Source: a virus. Taken from it: a stretch of 64,000 nt of DNA. The stretch covers positions 62,001 through 126,000 of the IMG/VR virus record IMGVR_UViG_3300018933_000001. One strand, given 5' to 3'. The translations under genes and the position numbers were made by a program. This document shows positions 10,862 through 62,008 of the stretch, one piece after another. The first letter of the stretch is position 1, and every line of letters begins with the position of its first letter. The notes below the pieces were generated by a model. The model made no database searches and was not told the origin of the DNA. It saw nothing but the letters and a program-made list of their open reading frames with translations.

Positions 10862-10874
10862 ATAGCAAGAAGAA

Positions 10875-10901
10875 TCCTCTAAAGTTATTAGCTCTAGAGG
10901 A
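10875..10901. terminator. inverted repeat between convergent genes
   Basis: TCCTCTA (10875-10881) and TAGAGGA (10895-10901) form a 7-bp stem. T-rich sequence follows it on both strands, so it may serve as a two-way terminator between the convergent genes ending at 10861 and 10925. Confidence 0.45.
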
Positions 10902-10924
10902 CTTCTACTACTTATCAACTAACT

Positions 10925-11179
10925 CTAATAAGAAAACAAATCTCGGTAACTAAGACCTACTCGCTCATAACAAACAGCAGCATTTGCTAACATTCTTATT
11001 TTCTGAATCTCACGCAAAATAGTAGTCAATTCAGCAGGATTTTTAACTACTTCTGCTAATTGTTTTGCATATTCAATAGAAGCTTGGTTTACTTTGTTAT
11101 GTAGTTCCTTATCTTCTTCAGTATTAGGAGGATGGTAGCTAAATAAATCTTCTAACTTGGTCAGGAATTCTTGAGTCAT
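10925..11179 (-). CDS. acb2: Acb2-like cyclic-nucleotide sponge (anti-CBASS)
   Basis: Acb2 proteins are small helical phage proteins that bind cyclic di- and trinucleotides and so block CBASS (and some Thoeris) immunity. This 84-residue protein has the family features I know: FSYHPP at residues 13-18 (Acb2 relatives read F-T-YHPP, with the Tyr in the nucleotide pocket), a polar helix, and IRMLANAAVC at 61-70, matching the conserved C-terminal ANAAIA helix. Length and all-helical character fit. It is the only minus-strand gene in the first 28 kb, with its own 44-bp divergent upstream region, so it is probably expressed separately. Identification is by motif, without a search. Confidence 0.72.
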   Translation of the reverse strand: MTQEFLTKLEDLFSYHPPNTEEDKELHNKVNQASIEYAKQLAEVVKNPAELTTILREIQKIRMLANAAVCYERVGLSYRDLFSY

Positions 11180-11223
11180 GTCTGTTAATTAAGTACATCT
11201 ATTAGAGTTTAACACAAAGTAAT

Positions 11224-11526: not shown

Positions 11527-13695
11527 ATGAAAACACTACAGCTCAAGTGGAGTGATATATTAGCTCCTGAAGTAGAACTTAATCCTAACATCATAGTAGA
11601 AGGTAAAGTAGGAAAGGAAATATGGGATAACTGGGTAGAAGTATTCTCTAAAGCTAAGATGTTCTCTCTTGACCTTGAGACTCATGGGGATGAAGAATAT
11701 TCTGCTCTATATTTCAGATTTGGGTTGATAAGACTAATATCAGTTGGGATAAAGGTAGATGGTAACTATTATGCTCTTATTTATGACTTAGGAGGAAATT
11801 TAGATGATATAGATGAGAGAAAGAAAGAGTTCCTTAATAGTAGGTTTTATCAGGTACTTAAAGAGAGATGTGAGAACCTAAAAGTACCAGTAGTAGGAGT
11901 TAACCTAAAGTTTGATGGTAACTTTCTACTTTATCATTTAGGTATTAAGATTCTTACTTGCCGAGATTTAATGCTATGTTCTCAAGTTATCTGGGCAGGT
12001 ATCGAAGTAATATCTACTAAAGAGAAAACTGATAGTGGAAGTAGTAGAGTTAAAGATAGAAAAGATAGGTGTCTCCTAGGTCATTCACTTAAAGGGATAA
12101 CAGAAAGAATCAATATACTTTACAACACTTCTTTTACTATTGATAAGACAGAGCAGAAAGAAGATTGGGGTTGGAGAATATCAAATGCTAAACTTAACTA
12201 CTCAGGAAATGACAGTATCTTACCTCTTCAACTATTTCCTTATATCCAGCAGTTAGTAGTAGAAAATGGACTTTACTATTCGGTAATGGCGGAGTGTCTC
12301 GCTTTACCTGCATTTATAGAGATGGAAGTATTTGGTTTTCCTATTGATAAAGAGTTGTTAGAGAAGAATCTTAGTATTTATAGAGCTAAATTTGATGAAT
12401 ATAACACTCTAGTATCTACTACATTTCCTGGGGTTAACTGGTCGCAAACAGAACAACTAAGACAAGCTTTTAATACGAAATGGGAAGACTTAAAGTTATT
12501 GTCGATGAATGATGAAGCTTTAAAGTCAGTAGAACATCCAGAAGCACAAGCATTACTCAAAATGCGTACTTTAAACGTACTCATTAATTACATGGAAGGT
12601 ATTAACAACACAGCTTGGAAAAATGAAGGAGAAGATTTCTACTCTGTTAGAACTATCTACAATCAGATATCTGCTAGTGGAAGTGGTAGAAGTTCCTGTA
12701 CTGGTGCATTAAGTTATAAAAGCAGTAAAGGTAGTAGAAAGAAGATTGATGTAGGAACTCAGTTACAAAATCCAGCTAAGACTCCTGCTTGGTTTACTGA
12801 TGAAGGTTTACCCGAGTTTAGGACGTTCTTTGCAGCTCCAGAAAGTTACTCATTAGGAATTATTGACTTATCTGCCAGTCACTACCGAATATGTACTGAA
12901 CTAAGTCAAGACCCTGTTCTATTAGATATTTACTTAAATGATAGAGATGCTCATTTAATTATGGCTCATACCATTGTCAAATTAGATGGTGCAGATGTAA
13001 CTTTTGATGAGTTTCAGAAATTATATAAAAAAGAGAAAGAAGCTAAAACAGAAGGTTGGGTTTCTGATAATAGAAAGAAAGGTAAAATAACCAATTATAG
13101 TGGACTCAATCAGGCAGGTGCATTTAAGTTACAGCAGACATTTAAAGGTTGGGGAGTAATAATATCTCTGGAAGAAGCTAAGAAACTTAAGAAGGCTTAT
13201 AAAGAAACATATAAGAGATTAGACCAGTTTATCCAGAATTATATAAAAGAATCTAATAGTTATAATATCGAGTTTCCTTTTTATAACCTTTACGGACAAC
13301 CAACTACTGGACATTACGGTAAATGCAAAACTTTTACTAACCGAACTGTTCATTTAAAGAAACAAGAGAAGCACAGTGAATGGGGAACTAAATATGAGAT
13401 TCCTTATACTGAATCTATTTCTTTAATTTGGCTTTGTGGAGAAGCTGATATTATCAAGTTCTCGCAGGGAATAGCCGTTATCCAATTCTTTTTACATCCG
13501 GAATGGAAAGCAAGATTTATCAATAATTGTCATGATGAGTTGGATTGGATGAATAAATGTGAGTTTTCTTTTGAAGCTAATAGTGTGGTGATGAGTAGCG
13601 TCCACGAACAAATGGGTACTTGGATTAAGTCTATTCCCGTAGATACTGATTTTGATCCAAATAAACTAACCGTTCAAAACTGGAATGAGAAATAA
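11527..13695 (+). CDS. polA: family A DNA polymerase with 3'-5' exonuclease
   Basis: Replicative polymerase, 722 aa, no 5'-nuclease domain. Proofreading motifs: LDLETHG (D49, E51), VNLKFDGNF near 130, and the YSGND segment near 235. Polymerase motif A is IIDLSASHYR (D447), where the usual QIELR glutamate is replaced by histidine. Motif B reads KITNYSGLN (K520, Y524), with tyrosine at the position of Klenow F762 and asparagine at that of Y766. Motif C is HDE (669-671). The catalytic acids are intact. The stop overlaps the next ATG by one base. Confidence 0.92.
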   Translation: MKTLQLKWSDILAPEVELNPNIIVEGKVGKEIWDNWVEVFSKAKMFSLDLETHGDEEYSALYFRFGLIRLISVGIKVDGNYYALIYDLGGNLDDIDERKKEFLNSRFYQVLKERCENLKVPVVGVNLKFDGNFLLYHLGIKILTCRDLMLCSQVIWAGIEVISTKEKTDSGSSRVKDRKDRCLLGHSLKGITERINILYNTSFTIDKTEQKEDWGWRISNAKLNYSGNDSILPLQLFPYIQQLVVENGLYYSVMAECLALPAFIEMEVFGFPIDKELLEKNLSIYRAKFDEYNTLVSTTFPGVNWSQTEQLRQAFNTKWEDLKLLSMNDEALKSVEHPEAQALLKMRTLNVLINYMEGINNTAWKNEGEDFYSVRTIYNQISASGSGRSSCTGALSYKSSKGSRKKIDVGTQLQNPAKTPAWFTDEGLPEFRTFFAAPESYSLGIIDLSASHYRICTELSQDPVLLDIYLNDRDAHLIMAHTIVKLDGADVTFDEFQKLYKKEKEAKTEGWVSDNRKKGKITNYSGLNQAGAFKLQQTFKGWGVIISLEEAKKLKKAYKETYKRLDQFIQNYIKESNSYNIEFPFYNLYGQPTTGHYGKCKTFTNRTVHLKKQEKHSEWGTKYEIPYTESISLIWLCGEADIIKFSQGIAVIQFFLHPEWKARFINNCHDELDWMNKCEFSFEANSVVMSSVHEQMGTWIKSIPVDTDFDPNKLTVQNWNEK

Positions 13696-14700: not shown

Positions 14701-15999
14701 ATGATTAAATTGACTCAACATATTGGTTTTGATGCTGCTACTGCCCTTTCCGTAATGTTTAGGACTTATTGCCGGACAAACGTTGTAGATGATGAAACAG
14801 GTGAGTTAGAACGAGAGTCCCCTCAACAAGCACTAGATAGGTCTATAAATGGATTAGATGTTTTTAATCTCTTAACTAAAGAACAATTAGAATTAATAAG
14901 GCAATACTGTTATAGAAATATAGTGTTTCCATCAGGTAGATGGTTATGGATTGGGGGAACTGATTGGATTGAGAAACAGAAGAATTACATTGGTGCTTAT
15001 AACTGTGCATCTGTACCAGTAGTAGATTGGGAGGCTTTTAGGTTTAATTTCCGCGCTCTATTAATGGGATGTGGAGTAGGAACGGTAGTTGAGTTAGATA
15101 AGATTTCTCAATTACCTAGTATTAAATATCCAATTAATTTAGTAGAAGTTACAGAGTTAGGTAGTAATTGGGTAGAAGGAAACCCAGAAAATGATAATAG
15201 CTGTTTTACTGCTTATAGGATAGACAAAGATACTTTAGGAATTATTTATACAGTAGGAGATAGTAAAGAAGGTTGGGTAGATGTAGCCACAGATATATTA
15301 GTATTTAGTTCTACTAATTTAAGTAATAGCGGGATTTGGGGAAATTTTCATTTACCTGAAAATTTTGATTATAAACAGATTAATTTAAGTATTGACCTCT
15401 CTTATGTAAGACCTAAAGGCAAGCAACTAAAAGGATTTGGTGGACTTTCTAATCCAGAAAAATTAGAAGAAGGTTTAAGAGCTGTAATAACTATTCTCAA
15501 TAAAGCAGTCGGGAAGCAGTTAAATAGTTTAGAAGTATGCAAGATACTAGGAATTGCTGGTGTTATAACAGTTAGTGGAAATGTGCGTAGAAGTGCAAGA
15601 ATAAATCAAGGCAGTCCAGAAGATGACCTTTTTACCACTTCTAAAGATAATCTTTGGGTGGAAATTGATGGGGATTGGGTAATAGACCCTGAACGAGATA
15701 TGCTTCGTATGAGCAACCACTCGAACGTTTATCACACTAAACCTACACTTGAAACTTTAGTAGCAGCAATTAGAAAGCAGTTTTATTCTGGTGAAGGTGC
15801 TATTCAATATGCTCCTGAAGCAGTTAGTAGAGCTAATGTAGACTTACTAGATACAGAAAATAAGAGGAAAAAATTCTTAAATCTTTATTGTGAAGATAGA
15901 AATTTAGCTAAAGATTACCTTCAGGAACTATCTAAGAATACCTTAGATGAGCGTGAATTAGAACATAGAATGAACCGACTAGGATTAAATCCTTGTGGT
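14701..15999 (+). CDS. nrdJ: class II ribonucleotide reductase, exon 1
   Basis: First 433 codons of an adenosylcobalamin-dependent ribonucleoside-triphosphate reductase, which makes dNTPs. YNCASVP (C102) carries the first redox cysteine of this group. The exon ends exactly in the catalytic finger loop at NPCG (C432), where a group I intron interrupts the NPCGE motif. Without splicing, translation stops two codons into the intron. Joining to the exon starting at 17155 restores NPCGEIIG in frame, giving a 791-residue enzyme of normal size. The cofactor is probably supplied by the adenosyltransferase at 20503. Confidence 0.92.
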
Positions 16000-17154
16000 A
16001 GATAATTTTGCCTCAAGTAAAAAACCTTGCAAAAACGGGGAAAGCTGAGATGTTAATCCCGTGGTAATCAAAAGGGGTAATATGCTTTTGACACCGTACA
16101 GCGTAGGAAGTGAAACTAGGTTACAATAAAAAGAGTAATCGAGAATATAATCTTCCCAAGAGTGCAAGGGTACATAAATGACAAGTGCTTATTACGGATA
16201 CTCCGGTTTTTATAAAGAATCTTATCTAAGGTCGTGTCTTGAATATATTTACGCTAGATATCTAGACTACATGGAAATTAGTTGGGGTGTACGAACCTAA
16301 AACATTTACTCTTACTAATGGTGAACGATATAAACCTGACTTTTTATTAGAGACAGGGGAGTATACAGAAATTAAAGGCTCTTTCAACTATAAAAAGTGT
16401 CTGCCTAAAGTTAAGTGTTTTGAATCTGATTTTCAAGTAAAGGTAAATATAATTCAGGAACCAGACTTAAGAGTTCTTATTAGAAACACTCCATTAGTAT
16501 TTGAGCATCTAAAGAATGAGTGGAAAAAGGTAGCTAAAGTTAGAGGTATGAATATCTCTGGTACTAAAAATCCAATGTACGGAATCGTACAAACAGATAG
16601 TACCAAAGCTAAAATCTCAGCTAGAGCGAAAGAAAGGTTTAACGACCCGGTTTACAGAGAAAAGTGGAAAAATAGTCCTAAGCGAAAAGCATACCACGTT
16701 AATCGCACAGGTATTAAAACGGGAGAAGTAGTCCCTAGATATACCTTACAATGTGAGTTTTGTAGTTCTGGTTTCCTAGTTATCCAAGGTGCAGCTAAGA
16801 TAAGACGTTTCTGTTCAAAGAGATGTGCTATTCAAACTAATCGTGGTAAAACTATAACTACAGACTTAAAAATACGTGAATTAGCCCACAACTTCGCTTT
16901 AAATAATTCGGATAAACTTTTCACTACTAAATTAAACAAGTTAAAACCACTCTTTCAACCACTTTATGATGAAGTGTTAGCAGCTCACAATATTATGGAT
17001 ACTAGAACTATTGCTCTGATAACAATGGGAAAATCAGCTAGTAGAAAAGAGTTTCTGTACTATTTACGAGATTATGTACAAAAGGTACGCGGAACTATAG
17101 AGAATTCAGAATCTATAGAACTAGAGGATAAAAAGCCTTTAGGATAACAAAATG
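16000..17154 (+). mobile_element. group I intron in nrdJ
   Basis: Splice sites can be read from pairings. The 5' exon 15992-15999 pairs with a guide at 16010-16017 (P1, one T-T mismatch), ending in the T-G pair expected at the 5' site. The first six bases of the 3' exon pair with 16004-16009 (P10). The intron ends in G, as expected. ACGGGGAA (16035-16042) and AATCCCGTGGTAA (16055-16067) match the P4-P6 core of phage T4 td-type group IA introns. GGAAG (16106-16110) with CTTCC (16152-16156) may be P7. It carries a homing endonuclease gene. Confidence 0.88.
16178..17147 (+). pseudogene. intron homing endonuclease, PD-(D/E)XK/EDxHD-like, frameshifted
   Basis: The long frame starts at a GTG (16287), but a better N-terminus lies upstream in another frame. 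ATG 16178, after AAGGG, encodes a segment containing SCLEYIYARYLDYMEISWG, which joins to VYEPKTFTL if one G of the G4 run at 16284-16287 is skipped. The joined protein (about 322 aa) has the expected nuclease parts: E in SCLE, then YKPDF and EIKG, then a NUMOD3-like NPMYG...TKAKIS region and a C-x2-C...C-x3-C zinc finger. So the gene is broken, recoded or misread by one base. It ends 7 bp before the 3' splice site. Confidence 0.7.
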
Positions 17155-28730: not shown

Positions 28731-30518
28731 TTATTCTTCTAAGATTTCCATAACTTTAACTGTCTTTCCATCTATCCGGATACTCTTAGTTCTAGTAGAG
28801 CAATACTGAGTAACATCGCTAGCCTTACCTTTCTTGCTTAGATGTAATCGAGTATAAACGTCATTAACTACAGTTTTGAGATGAGGTAGAGTATAAACCT
28901 CTCCTACTACTAACAATCTGTTTAACTCAGATTTGATACACTGTTGAATATCTACGTTTTTAAACTTGAGTTCGTTCTTAAGTCTATCAGGTAGATAGTT
29001 AACAGCTTTCATTCTCTCAGCACCTAGCTGCTCATAACTTTCTTTGATGAGGGGGAATCTATCTCCTAAATAGACCCTCTCATTTTCATTTTCTATATAA
29101 CTAATGCAATTAGACTTAAAAGACTTACTGCTCAATCTATGAATAAAGCTATTCTCATTCTGAACGTTAACAAAGTCTTGGTCGTTAGCTAGTTCAAATC
29201 CAGCTTCAACATAAGCTTCTCTAACACTCAGACCATCATGATAAACGTTACTAGAGACTTCCCATCTTCTCTTATCATTGAGCATCATATACTTATTGAA
29301 GTAGAGTTCTCCATCTGTTCCTTTACTAATATAATTGTCATCAGAATAGCCGTATCTAGTATTGCTTTCCCAGTCTATTAAAAAAGCTTTCTGTTCAGAC
29401 TCATTACCTTTATGATAGAGAGATAGTAGATTAGTAGTTTGCTCTACTTTGGTTTTAATTAATTCATCAAACTCTTCTTGAGATAGCAAGCTAGCATCAG
29501 TATTATAAAGATGATAAATTTCCTTTCTGAACGGATTAGTAAGAGTTCTGATTCTACCAGCTATCTGTCTAATATCTGTATCAATACTAATTAAAGTGTT
29601 CTTATTTTGAGTGTTACTAACGACGTAGATAACTCCAGTTTCAGAATAGAAGTCGCATCCTTTAAATGCAGTAGATGTAATAAAGTTGAATTTCTTCTCT
29701 GGGTCAAGTGCTTTCTCTATCTGAAATATATCCATCTTGCTTTGGTTGACTTTGTTGTTAGCACAAATAACTCTAACTTCACTAGGACGTAAATCAGCAG
29801 CTTCAATGATGTTTAGAATAGAGTTAACTGAATTAACAAAGAAATAAGCAGATTTTGAATAATGACCGTTAGGCATTTTAATACCTTCATCACCAGCAGC
29901 TTTATAAGCTTCAATAATATTACAAGCTAACTGGTAAGGTTTATTAGTTTTCTTGCGTTCTACTTTGACTTTGGTGTATTCTCCCCAGTTAATCTGATAC
30001 TCATCTAATCCTTTCAAACATTCAGGATAATACTCAGACTTAATAGGAGTAGCAGAAATATAAGTAACATAATCAAATTCTTGAACTGAATTTAACAATC
30101 TATCTATTGCAGCATCTCTATATGAGTAAGCGTCTAGCAAATCAGAAAACTCATCTACTAAAACTCTGTATTTATCTTTGTTATTAGAAGATAACAGTCT
30201 CGAAACTCTATCAAAACTATCATAAGTAACCATTATCTTTGGGACTTTAGTAGTGTTGATATAGCTAACTAAATCTCTCTCTTTAATACCACCATAAAAA
30301 CCAAATATCTTCTCAGCTCTCCTTTTATTTGGATACTGGTCTACTTTGTTTCTAATTATCTCAATAGTGGGAACTGCTAAGATATAGGGGTTTTGGTCTT
30401 CAAGAGCTAATACTGATGCTCCTACACCAGTTTCGTGTTTATCAATTATACCTTTTGGTAGTTCAGTCATAAACTCTGAACAGTAACGGGAATTAGGAGG
30501 TGCGTCGATGATTATCAT
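28731..30518 (-). CDS. SF2 helicase-like ATPase with lysine-less P-loop, 595 aa
   Basis: Predicted nucleic-acid-dependent ATPase. KHETGVGAS (residues 27-35) stands where motif I should have GK(T/S), so the lysine is missing but the earlier K27-x-x-TG-x-GA pattern is kept. I associate this with a phage helicase group also present in crAss-like phages. Then come MVTYDS, a Walker B-like LVDEF, motif III YISATP, and motif VI QIAGRIR. Only the helicase core plus a C-terminal region without recognised domains is seen. It reads against all neighbouring genes. Confidence 0.8.
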   Translation of the reverse strand: MIIIDAPPNSRYCSEFMTELPKGIIDKHETGVGASVLALEDQNPYILAVPTIEIIRNKVDQYPNKRRAEKIFGFYGGIKERDLVSYINTTKVPKIMVTYDSFDRVSRLLSSNNKDKYRVLVDEFSDLLDAYSYRDAAIDRLLNSVQEFDYVTYISATPIKSEYYPECLKGLDEYQINWGEYTKVKVERKKTNKPYQLACNIIEAYKAAGDEGIKMPNGHYSKSAYFFVNSVNSILNIIEAADLRPSEVRVICANNKVNQSKMDIFQIEKALDPEKKFNFITSTAFKGCDFYSETGVIYVVSNTQNKNTLISIDTDIRQIAGRIRTLTNPFRKEIYHLYNTDASLLSQEEFDELIKTKVEQTTNLLSLYHKGNESEQKAFLIDWESNTRYGYSDDNYISKGTDGELYFNKYMMLNDKRRWEVSSNVYHDGLSVREAYVEAGFELANDQDFVNVQNENSFIHRLSSKSFKSNCISYIENENERVYLGDRFPLIKESYEQLGAERMKAVNYLPDRLKNELKFKNVDIQQCIKSELNRLLVVGEVYTLPHLKTVVNDVYTRLHLSKKGKASDVTQYCSTRTKSIRIDGKTVKVMEILEE

Positions 30519-59351: not shown

Positions 59352-62008
59352 GCTATCTCCCCTAACTCTCTTCCTTTGGTGTACATATTAAAGATACTTG
59401 CTTCAGCAGGATTAGTAGAATTAGTAGAAGGTTCAATGTTTTCTTGTGGTAGTTTGACTTTTTCTAATCTAGTTAGGCTACCCAAGCTACTATCTATTCC
59501 TAAACTAAGTGAAGTAGAACCAGTAACCTCAGTAAGTAATCTACCATCTTCTAGTTTTTGATAACCTACTATATTTACACTACTGCTATTGTTTATTACC
59601 CTACACTTCCAAGCATCCCAAGAATAGTTAAACGTAACTTTACTTCCTTCTATCATCTCAGGTCTAAATAAGGTAGTTAAAGAAATAGAACAGTTGCTAT
59701 TCATATCATCTATTTCTAAATCAGTTATTGCCCCTAAAAAAGCTTGAGATTGATGTTTAGTATTGTAAGAAACAGAACCTTGTATCGGGTCATCTAAGCT
59801 ATATCCTTGCGTAATTAGTAGATATTTGTACTTATCTTTTGGTTTTTGTATTGCATCTTTTCTTTTAGTCTCAGTCATCTTATAGTAGACATCTGCATTT
59901 TCTTTTACACTTTCTTCAGTTTTAGGTACAAAAGGTAGTTGTTTTCTAGTTGCTTCAGGAGGTCTACCACTTCCATCTTCTACTCTAATACTGGTAAATG
60001 CGTTTCTAAAATTACTGTCTTGAGCTGAACGTTCTGTAATGTGTGTCTCGTATTTTTCTTCTAAACCTTCTTTGTCATCACCTATAAAATTATCCCTAGC
60101 TATAGTTCCAGTAGAAGTAAAGCCTAATCCTTCCTCTTTAATAGTTGATTTACTTCTATGAATAAACGTTTTCTTATGTATTTCTGTCTCTCTACCAGTA
60201 GTTAGAGGTGGATTGTAGATTGGATTATCAGTAGGTGTTTCAGGAGGTGAATCTCTAAATTCTCTTCTAAGAGCTAGATTTGCAGGGTCTTCAATTCTAG
60301 AATAACAAGAGTAGAAAGTGTATTCTTCTCCTATGTGCATTGGTTCAACCCAAGTAGGGTCTTTCTTATATTTAGTAATTAACTTACCATTTGAGCTACA
60401 TACTTGATAAGGAACATTTGGAGTATTGCCGTTCGCATCTCGGTAGTAATCTCTATTTTGTCTCAATATAAACTGAGTTCCACCTGTAATAGGAACGGCT
60501 CTAAATCTATAGCAATCTATTATCTCGTTTAGTTCAAATAGTTTTTCCCCTCTAACATTTGCATCTGCCTCATAAATTTTACTTGCAGGGTCAGCTATTG
60601 CACTTTTTTCTTGTTCTAACTTAGCTGTTTCAGTAGAAGATTCTTGTTTAAACCTACACATTTTCCATCCAGTAATCTTATTTCCTAAGTAGTAACCAGT
60701 GGAAGGGTCAAATATATGAGTAGTTTCTTGTGACTCTGTTAATCCCCAATAGTTGCTAGGAGAAGCTTCTAAGATACTTTCTCCATCTCTCTCTTTAACA
60801 ATATCTTTGGATAAATACATGAATCCCCAAGTTTCTACTTTTTCCCATAAGATAGTCGTCCCTTCTCTTTTAGTAAATGTTTTAGTTTTTATTTTACCTG
60901 AAGCATCGTAGTTTAAATCCATTGACCTCAACATTCCTGAATCGCTAGGGGGAGAAGTTGCATTGTCCGGGTCAGAAACGGATTCTTTTACACTAATTTT
61001 TAGTTGTAACCATTGAGGTTTAGTATTTTGAAAAGTATCTTCTCCTTGATTGTTTAGAGGTTCTTCTTCAGATTGGTTCCATGAGAGTTCAGTAGGTTTG
61101 TAGCCTAACTCACTCATATTATCTGAGTAACTAATAGGGGAAATTATTCTGTCTTCTCTTACCTTATACTTTTGAGGAGTTGCCCACTTAATAGTTTTGA
61201 CACCTTCATCAGATGAGTACAAGACATAAAGACCTTTAGTTCTTTTTCTACTATCTAACTCACTAGCAAAAGTAGTAGTTAAGTTAGGAGCAACTGGTCT
61301 TTGATAGTTACATAAGAAGTCGTAACCTAAGTAACTAAAACCTAACCTATTAGCATAAGAACTAAGTGGTACTACTAATTCCTCTGGCTTATTAAGAGAA
61401 TTAGCTAAGTTAGAAGATGTACTACTTCTACCTACCTTACATTGAGGAGCTTCAAAAGGTTTACTACTTCTGTTACTCTCACCTCTATCTTTAACAAATA
61501 TAGGTTGACTTATTAGTTTCTCATACCAACCTGTAAAAGATAAATCTATGTCGTAATGTCCTTCTGGATAAATAACTCTTTCTCCAATAACTTCAGAGTA
61601 ATTAGTTAGTCTAAAGGGAATTCCGTAAAATATGTACTTCTCATCAAATCTATCTCTGAACTTATTTCTTATTTCGTCTATCTCATCTCTACTACACATT
61701 AGTTTAAAAGATATAGATGGGTGACTCTCAAAACTTCTACTAATGGTAAAGCCACCAACTAACTTATGTTCTACTATGAAGTCAGGTAGCTCGATTTGAT
61801 TACTAATAAATATCTCTTTATTTTTAAGTATTTTAAGAGGTAAGGGGTCTTGAGTAATCTTAGTATTTACCTTACAACATAGAAGAACTTTCTGAGTGAC
61901 AGGATTAAAGAGAAATGTACCTGGACTTGCAGCTAGTTTAGTTACTTGTTCATTAGGTAATTGATTAGTAGAAGTAATTATATTATTTAAAGGTGACTTA
62001 GGGGACAT
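59321..62008 (-). CDS. large tail/baseplate-type protein, 895 aa
   Basis: No clear catalytic domain. N-terminal part (about 60-250) resembles the globular, strand-rich region of tail-hub or Tal-like proteins (VEHKLVGGFTISRSFESHP...SFKLM). A long charged middle contains several P/T-rich stretches. Identified as a virion tail component by size, strand and neighbours only. Its start codon is 6 bp from the start of the divergent gene at 62015. Confidence 0.78.
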   Translation of the reverse strand: MSPKSPLNNIITSTNQLPNEQVTKLAASPGTFLFNPVTQKVLLCCKVNTKITQDPLPLKILKNKEIFISNQIELPDFIVEHKLVGGFTISRSFESHPSISFKLMCSRDEIDEIRNKFRDRFDEKYIFYGIPFRLTNYSEVIGERVIYPEGHYDIDLSFTGWYEKLISQPIFVKDRGESNRSSKPFEAPQCKVGRSSTSSNLANSLNKPEELVVPLSSYANRLGFSYLGYDFLCNYQRPVAPNLTTTFASELDSRKRTKGLYVLYSSDEGVKTIKWATPQKYKVREDRIISPISYSDNMSELGYKPTELSWNQSEEEPLNNQGEDTFQNTKPQWLQLKISVKESVSDPDNATSPPSDSGMLRSMDLNYDASGKIKTKTFTKREGTTILWEKVETWGFMYLSKDIVKERDGESILEASPSNYWGLTESQETTHIFDPSTGYYLGNKITGWKMCRFKQESSTETAKLEQEKSAIADPASKIYEADANVRGEKLFELNEIIDCYRFRAVPITGGTQFILRQNRDYYRDANGNTPNVPYQVCSSNGKLITKYKKDPTWVEPMHIGEEYTFYSCYSRIEDPANLALRREFRDSPPETPTDNPIYNPPLTTGRETEIHKKTFIHRSKSTIKEEGLGFTSTGTIARDNFIGDDKEGLEEKYETHITERSAQDSNFRNAFTSIRVEDGSGRPPEATRKQLPFVPKTEESVKENADVYYKMTETKRKDAIQKPKDKYKYLLITQGYSLDDPIQGSVSYNTKHQSQAFLGAITDLEIDDMNSNCSISLTTLFRPEMIEGSKVTFNYSWDAWKCRVINNSSSVNIVGYQKLEDGRLLTEVTGSTSLSLGIDSSLGSLTRLEKVKLPQENIEPSTNSTNPAEASIFNMYTKGRELGEIAYGFGSRYSG

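Follow-up and report, generated by a model that had tools for sequence, protein, structure and literature searches.

The window analysed here is a 64-kb stretch of viral DNA corresponding to positions 62001–126000 of a virus record of 146,537 bases. Within it, an 84-residue open reading frame (ORF) on the minus strand is a real and conserved coding gene, whose product we refer to as P0001 (Table 1). It is flanked by ORFs of 130 and 94 residues, and the latter is followed by the gene for a family A DNA polymerase (PolA). The preliminary description had attributed YHPP and ANAA motifs to the minus-strand product and both are present, at residues 15–18 and 65–68. Near the PolA gene there is also a 434-residue ORF (14701–16005) with the insertion domain of a class II (B12-dependent) ribonucleotide reductase.

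Table 1 Features at and around the P0001 gene (positions in the window)
Feature	Position	Strand	Remarks
Acb2/Tad1-hairpin family gene, P0001	10925..11179	-	ATG to stop, 84 residues; assigned by PF24729, phrog_1454 and AlphaFold2
YHPP, residues 15–18	11126..11137	-	Tyr15 aligns with T4 Acb2 Tyr8
ANAA, residues 65–68, second long helix	10976..10987	-	Ala65 aligns with T4 Ala77
Asn31 codon	11087..11089	-	aligns with T4 Lys23 and PaMx33 Lys26
Arg62 codon	10994..10996	-	aligns with T4 Ser74
Terminator-like hairpin 3' of the gene	10873..10903	-	12 pairs, T-rich tail; conserved in L143
Divergent intergenic region, 44 bp	11180..11223		upstream TGTTAAACTnTAnTAG common to L143
DNA polymerase A (PolA) gene	11527..13695	+	context marker common to L143, 69% identity

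An ortholog of the same length lies in the equivalent opposite-strand slot beside PolA in L143, a 150-kb viral contig from a sibling phage that has an ATPase (95%), PolA (69%), a Sak-type protein (46%) and other neighbours in common with the window. The two products are identical at 69 of 84 residues (82%), and the substitutions between their genes fall 14/6/30 by codon position, with dN 0.117, dS 0.94 and dN/dS ~0.12. P0001 is under strong purifying selection. A second ortholog, in a 188-kb phage contig (L109/L112), is identical at 59 of 79 residues (74%), with codon-position substitutions of 16/12/46. The 16 kb around it have nothing else in common with the window, and the window's PolA was matched nowhere in that contig in a search made without a positive control. 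The occurrence of the gene in this otherwise unrelated context suggests that it has moved between phages.

As had been stated, no other plausible gene lies on the minus strand in the first 28 kb. The first to follow is at 28731–30518, and the remaining minus-strand ORFs before position 28731 are short or overlap plus-strand genes; an 84-residue ORF at 18–272 with a TTG start, which overlaps plus-strand ORFs, is probably not a gene. As to the proposal that P0001 has its own divergent transcript, the isolated opposite-strand gene and its conserved terminator speak for it and make a separate transcript plausible, whereas no match to a sigma-70 promoter was found in the 44-bp region upstream. The element TGTTAAACTnTAnTAG was considered as a repeated phage promoter and rejected, since the window has 9 loose matches to it where 9.0 would be expected.

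Sequence comparisons place P0001 in the Acb2/Tad1 hairpin family, a known family to which it adds a member, and at this level the initial recognition of an Acb2-like protein was right, with profile, profile–profile and predicted-structure neighbours in agreement. On its own, P0001 matches the Pfam family PF24729 (Acb2_Tad1_hairpin) with 25.4 bits (E = 1.6e-5), which is 1.6 bits short of the curated cutoff of 27 bits, so the assignment leans on converging evidence rather than on that match alone. It also matches PHROG 1454 (phrog_1454) with E = 1.9e-8. When P0001 was aligned with ten distant phage relatives, 10 of the 11 sequences matched PF24729 at E ≤ 0.01 (best 2e-22) and all 11 matched phrog_1454. 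In viral and genome contigs, scans with P0001 only returned no relative, and relatives were found by degenerate motif scans and by using relatives as queries; an H-x-x-V-N pattern scan gave unrelated loci only.

Spurious matches are common with small helical proteins, and with a Pfam score below the cutoff it could be argued that P0001 is an unrelated helical hairpin that resembles the family by chance. A profile (HMM) was built from 50 IMG/VR relatives with P0001 and its closest kin left out. P0001 is its sole match among the 701 six-frame ORFs of the window (38 bits, E = 5e-11), and the top score of 2,000 shuffled copies of P0001 was 12.2 bits. Comparison by hhalign of the clade of P0001 with the 50 family relatives gave E = 2e-17. 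Among the other aligned relatives the hallmark His of YHPP is invariant (53/53) and the hallmark Asn of ANAA nearly so (52/53), while the Tyr of YHPP varies family-wide between Tyr, His and Phe. With these results a chance resemblance becomes extremely improbable. Other searches contributed little: single-sequence phmmer of P0001 against PDB sequences gave helical noise only, NCBIfam had no match for P0001, and PADLOC, whose models describe defence and not counter-defence, had none for P0001 or the small genes beside it. A Pfam match to Endotoxin_C2 (E = 0.0016, well under the cutoff of that family) was discounted as an artefact of helical composition.

The connection to the characterised proteins is less direct. 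A larger alignment of P0001 relatives compared with solved chains matched Acb2 homolog 43 (9ptq; 1.5e-9) and Tad1 (0.002), and T4 Vs.4 weakly (0.075). The same alignment compared by hhalign with an alignment of T4 Vs.4 and PaMx33 Acb2 gave E = 3e-8 with a probability of 95. Set directly against T4/PaMx33 Acb2, the 4-sequence clade of P0001 gave a weak match (E = 0.007); the link passes through the intermediate family.

The AlphaFold2 model of the monomer, calculated with 54 sequences, has a mean pLDDT of 92 and is all-helical without any strand, with helices at residues 3–13, 21–44 and 48–74 and a short one at 78–81. An Acb2 protomer consists of a short N-terminal helix and two long helices, to which Tad1 adds an N-terminal antiparallel β-sheet (PMC12043709). 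Structure prediction, suggested earlier as a check, thus gives a helical-hairpin protomer as in Acb2, without the β domain of Tad1. Among the BFVD viral models, the best named neighbours belong to the Acb2/Tad1-hairpin proteins, with probability 1.0 and rmsd of 0.9–2.6 Å, but none passes E = 0.001. Foldseek against the PDB returned no Acb2 for the model, nor for a control, the canonical relative from Brevibacillus phage Jenst.

Among known proteins, those of PHROG 1454/PF24729 from actinophages, Brevibacillus phage Jenst and Lactococcus phage 1706 resemble P0001 in length, the F-x-YHPP start, the hairpin and ANAA. Their identity to P0001 is mostly 20–30% over 60–70 residues, and they have Arg31, a hydrophobic residue 62 and Arg71 where P0001 has Asn31, Arg62 and Tyr71. 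T4 Vs.4 (Acb2, PDB 7uq2) has in common with P0001 the short helix followed by a long hairpin and the equivalent residues Tyr8/Tyr15, Thr12/Thr20 and Ala77/Ala65; it differs in a longer loop between the long helices and in having Lys23, Ser74, Arg79 and Phe82 in place of Asn31, Arg62, Ala67 and Cys70. PaMx33 Acb2 (ORF24) is alike in its Tyr11 position and in the helical-hairpin family profile, but has Lys26 at the position of Asn31 and, in sequence numbering, Arg67/Thr74 at those of Ala49/Arg56. The solved sequence nearest to the family profile, Acb2 homolog 43, is a 76-residue chain without YHPP. Tad1 (7uav, 8kbb–8kbh) resembles P0001 in the hairpin region and in the Asn of the last helix, and it has the N-terminal β-sheet domain that P0001 lacks.

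In T4 Acb2, Tyr8 and Phe82 stack on cGAMP, and its polar contacts are with Tyr8, His11, Lys23 and Arg79. Binding of cGAMP is disturbed by S74N, T12I removes a helix cap, and A77 lies at the hexamer interface (PMC10097602). The alignment pairs these T4 residues with P0001 as Tyr8 = Tyr15, Thr12 = Thr20, Lys23 = Asn31, Ser74 = Arg62, Ala77 = Ala65, Arg79 = Ala67 and Phe82 = Cys70. The base-stacking Tyr (Y8 in T4, Y11 in PaMx33) is therefore present, and it is Tyr in all 12 members of the clade defined below. The basic residue of T4 K23 and PaMx33 K26 is missing; it is a ligand contact in the characterised members and may not be needed family-wide. The ligand contacts Arg79 and Phe82 are also absent. 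However, position 67 is Ala throughout the near family and PaMx33 too is without Phe82, so these two residues do not define the family as a whole. The lack of their equivalents makes it possible that binding is weak or altered.

It had been claimed that several residues near the Tyr vary, with a possible effect on ligand range. The binding-site residues of P0001 do differ from those of characterised Acb2 (Asn31, Arg62, Ala67 and Cys70), but the informative variation is at positions 31 and 62 rather than beside the Tyr. The combination Asn31/Arg62 occurs in 4 of 78 distinct relatives, namely P0001 and its nearest kin; none of the other 74 has Arg62, and 73 of them have Arg31. With eight sequences added, the clade comprises 12 members, all of which have Gln59, Arg62, Met63 and Asn66, while Asn31 is found in 11 and replaced by Gly in one (L139). 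The 12 members are still recovered as one split when columns 31 and 62 are masked (FastTree SH 0.84, UFBoot 86), and the exchange to Asn31/Arg62 was therefore probably one event. What is new here is thus a little-studied clade of 12 members with a distinct residue pair at two predicted pocket positions. Judged by its position alone, Arg62 seems to stand in for the lost basic residue at 31. The two-residue exchange offers a compact, testable model of how the pocket of a sponge may be re-wired.

A second possible relocation of charge, over seven residues along one helix, is seen at positions 49 and 56. Here 69 of the 78 relatives have the pair Arg49/Thr56, and P0001 and four others (L007, L008, L067 and L109) have Ala49/Arg56; these five sequences fall on more than one branch. 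With Ala49/Arg56 and the missing T4 contacts taken together, ligand binding could be weak or lost.

This bears on an unlikely reading in which P0001 is a family member that has lost sponge activity, or never had it, and plays some other role, structural or regulatory for example. Apart from the missing equivalents of K23, R79 and F82, all direct contacts of cGAMP in T4, it draws on the family genes in L098, TR020, L096 and PS6 that adjoin terminase, portal or capsid genes, and on L096, where the family hairpin is fused to a longer protein. Against it, the P0001 gene is isolated and outside any structural operon, purifying selection is strong, and the new Arg has appeared precisely at a pocket position and is kept clade-wide.

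Slightly more probable, though still improbable, is a sponge of the same family that mainly binds, instead of a CBASS signal, a Thoeris signal of the gcADPR type, a cyclic oligoadenylate of type III CRISPR or another cyanobacterial signal. Acb2 and Tad1 are united in one Pfam family, and the ligands of Tad1 include gcADPR besides CBASS signals (PMC12043709); the alignment of P0001 relatives also matches Tad1 chains, and the pocket residues of P0001 are unlike those of T4 Acb2. The gcADPR pocket of Tad1, however, is not confined to the helical hairpin but also involves loops and a tail (PMC12043709), and the Tad1-type β domain is missing from the P0001 model.

We therefore consider it probable, as the best explanation, that P0001 is an all-helical sponge of the Acb2 family that sequesters a cyclic-nucleotide defence signal, most likely that of CBASS, in a predicted and possibly re-wired pocket. 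P0001 would assemble into an Acb2-type oligomer, a hexamer, in which Tyr15 would stack on a base of the signal, a cyclic di- or trinucleotide that the host defence (CBASS most likely) produces. The signal would be held and not cleaved, leaving the effector inactive. In exchange for the basic residue on the first long helix (Lys23 in T4), the second long helix would have gained Arg62, by which the positive charge would be kept and the predicted pocket reshaped, and the bound signal could shift. A tentative and rather doubtful extension is that the sequences form a clade of cyanophage Acb2 sponges in which the pocket charge has passed from T4 position 23 to position 74 and the specificity has shifted to a cyanobacterial signal that canonical Acb2 binds poorly.

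Several observations concern the host. Members of the clade are found in Nostoc punctiforme NIES-2108, in a Nostoc MAG and in Arthronema cyanophage TR020. The octamer HIP1 (GCGATCGC) marks cyanobacterial DNA, and other members lie on HIP1-rich viral contigs, one of which has 9 sites in 7.6 kb against 0.1 expected; the 64-kb window itself contains no HIP1 site. The PolA of the window is closest to that of Nodularia phages (23%) and its ATPase to that of Pseudanabaena phages. From these sequence relationships a cyanobacterial host for the virus is likely. The hexamer CGATCG does not occur in the window, where ~5 copies are expected from base composition, possibly because a restriction or methylation site of the host is avoided.

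Most Acb2 proteins examined by experiment are from gammaproteobacterial phages, and in the open literature on cyanophage and CBASS together we found no dedicated paper. That a coherent clade occurs in phages of filamentous cyanobacteria, and that one of its members turns up in an unrelated phage setting, suggests that phages attack cyclic-nucleotide signalling defence in these bacteria. Panoptes makes T4 Acb2 a liability (PMC12657218) and, if the sponge reading of P0001 is true, a host bearing Panoptes would make P0001 a liability to its phage in turn.

Family members were also met under other names or in other forms. In TR020 (L002:2486-2725) the Acb2-family gene is annotated as a 'putative protein disulfide-isomerase', with a start placed too late so that the YHPP region is lost, and the family members of Brevibacillus phage Jenst and Paenibacillus phage Likha are each labelled 'putative phosphomannomutase'. 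In L096 (2708-3829), downstream of a terminase-like ORF, a protein of 373 residues carries the Acb2/Tad1 hairpin at its C terminus (residues 302–372; phrog_1454, E = 2.8e-20).
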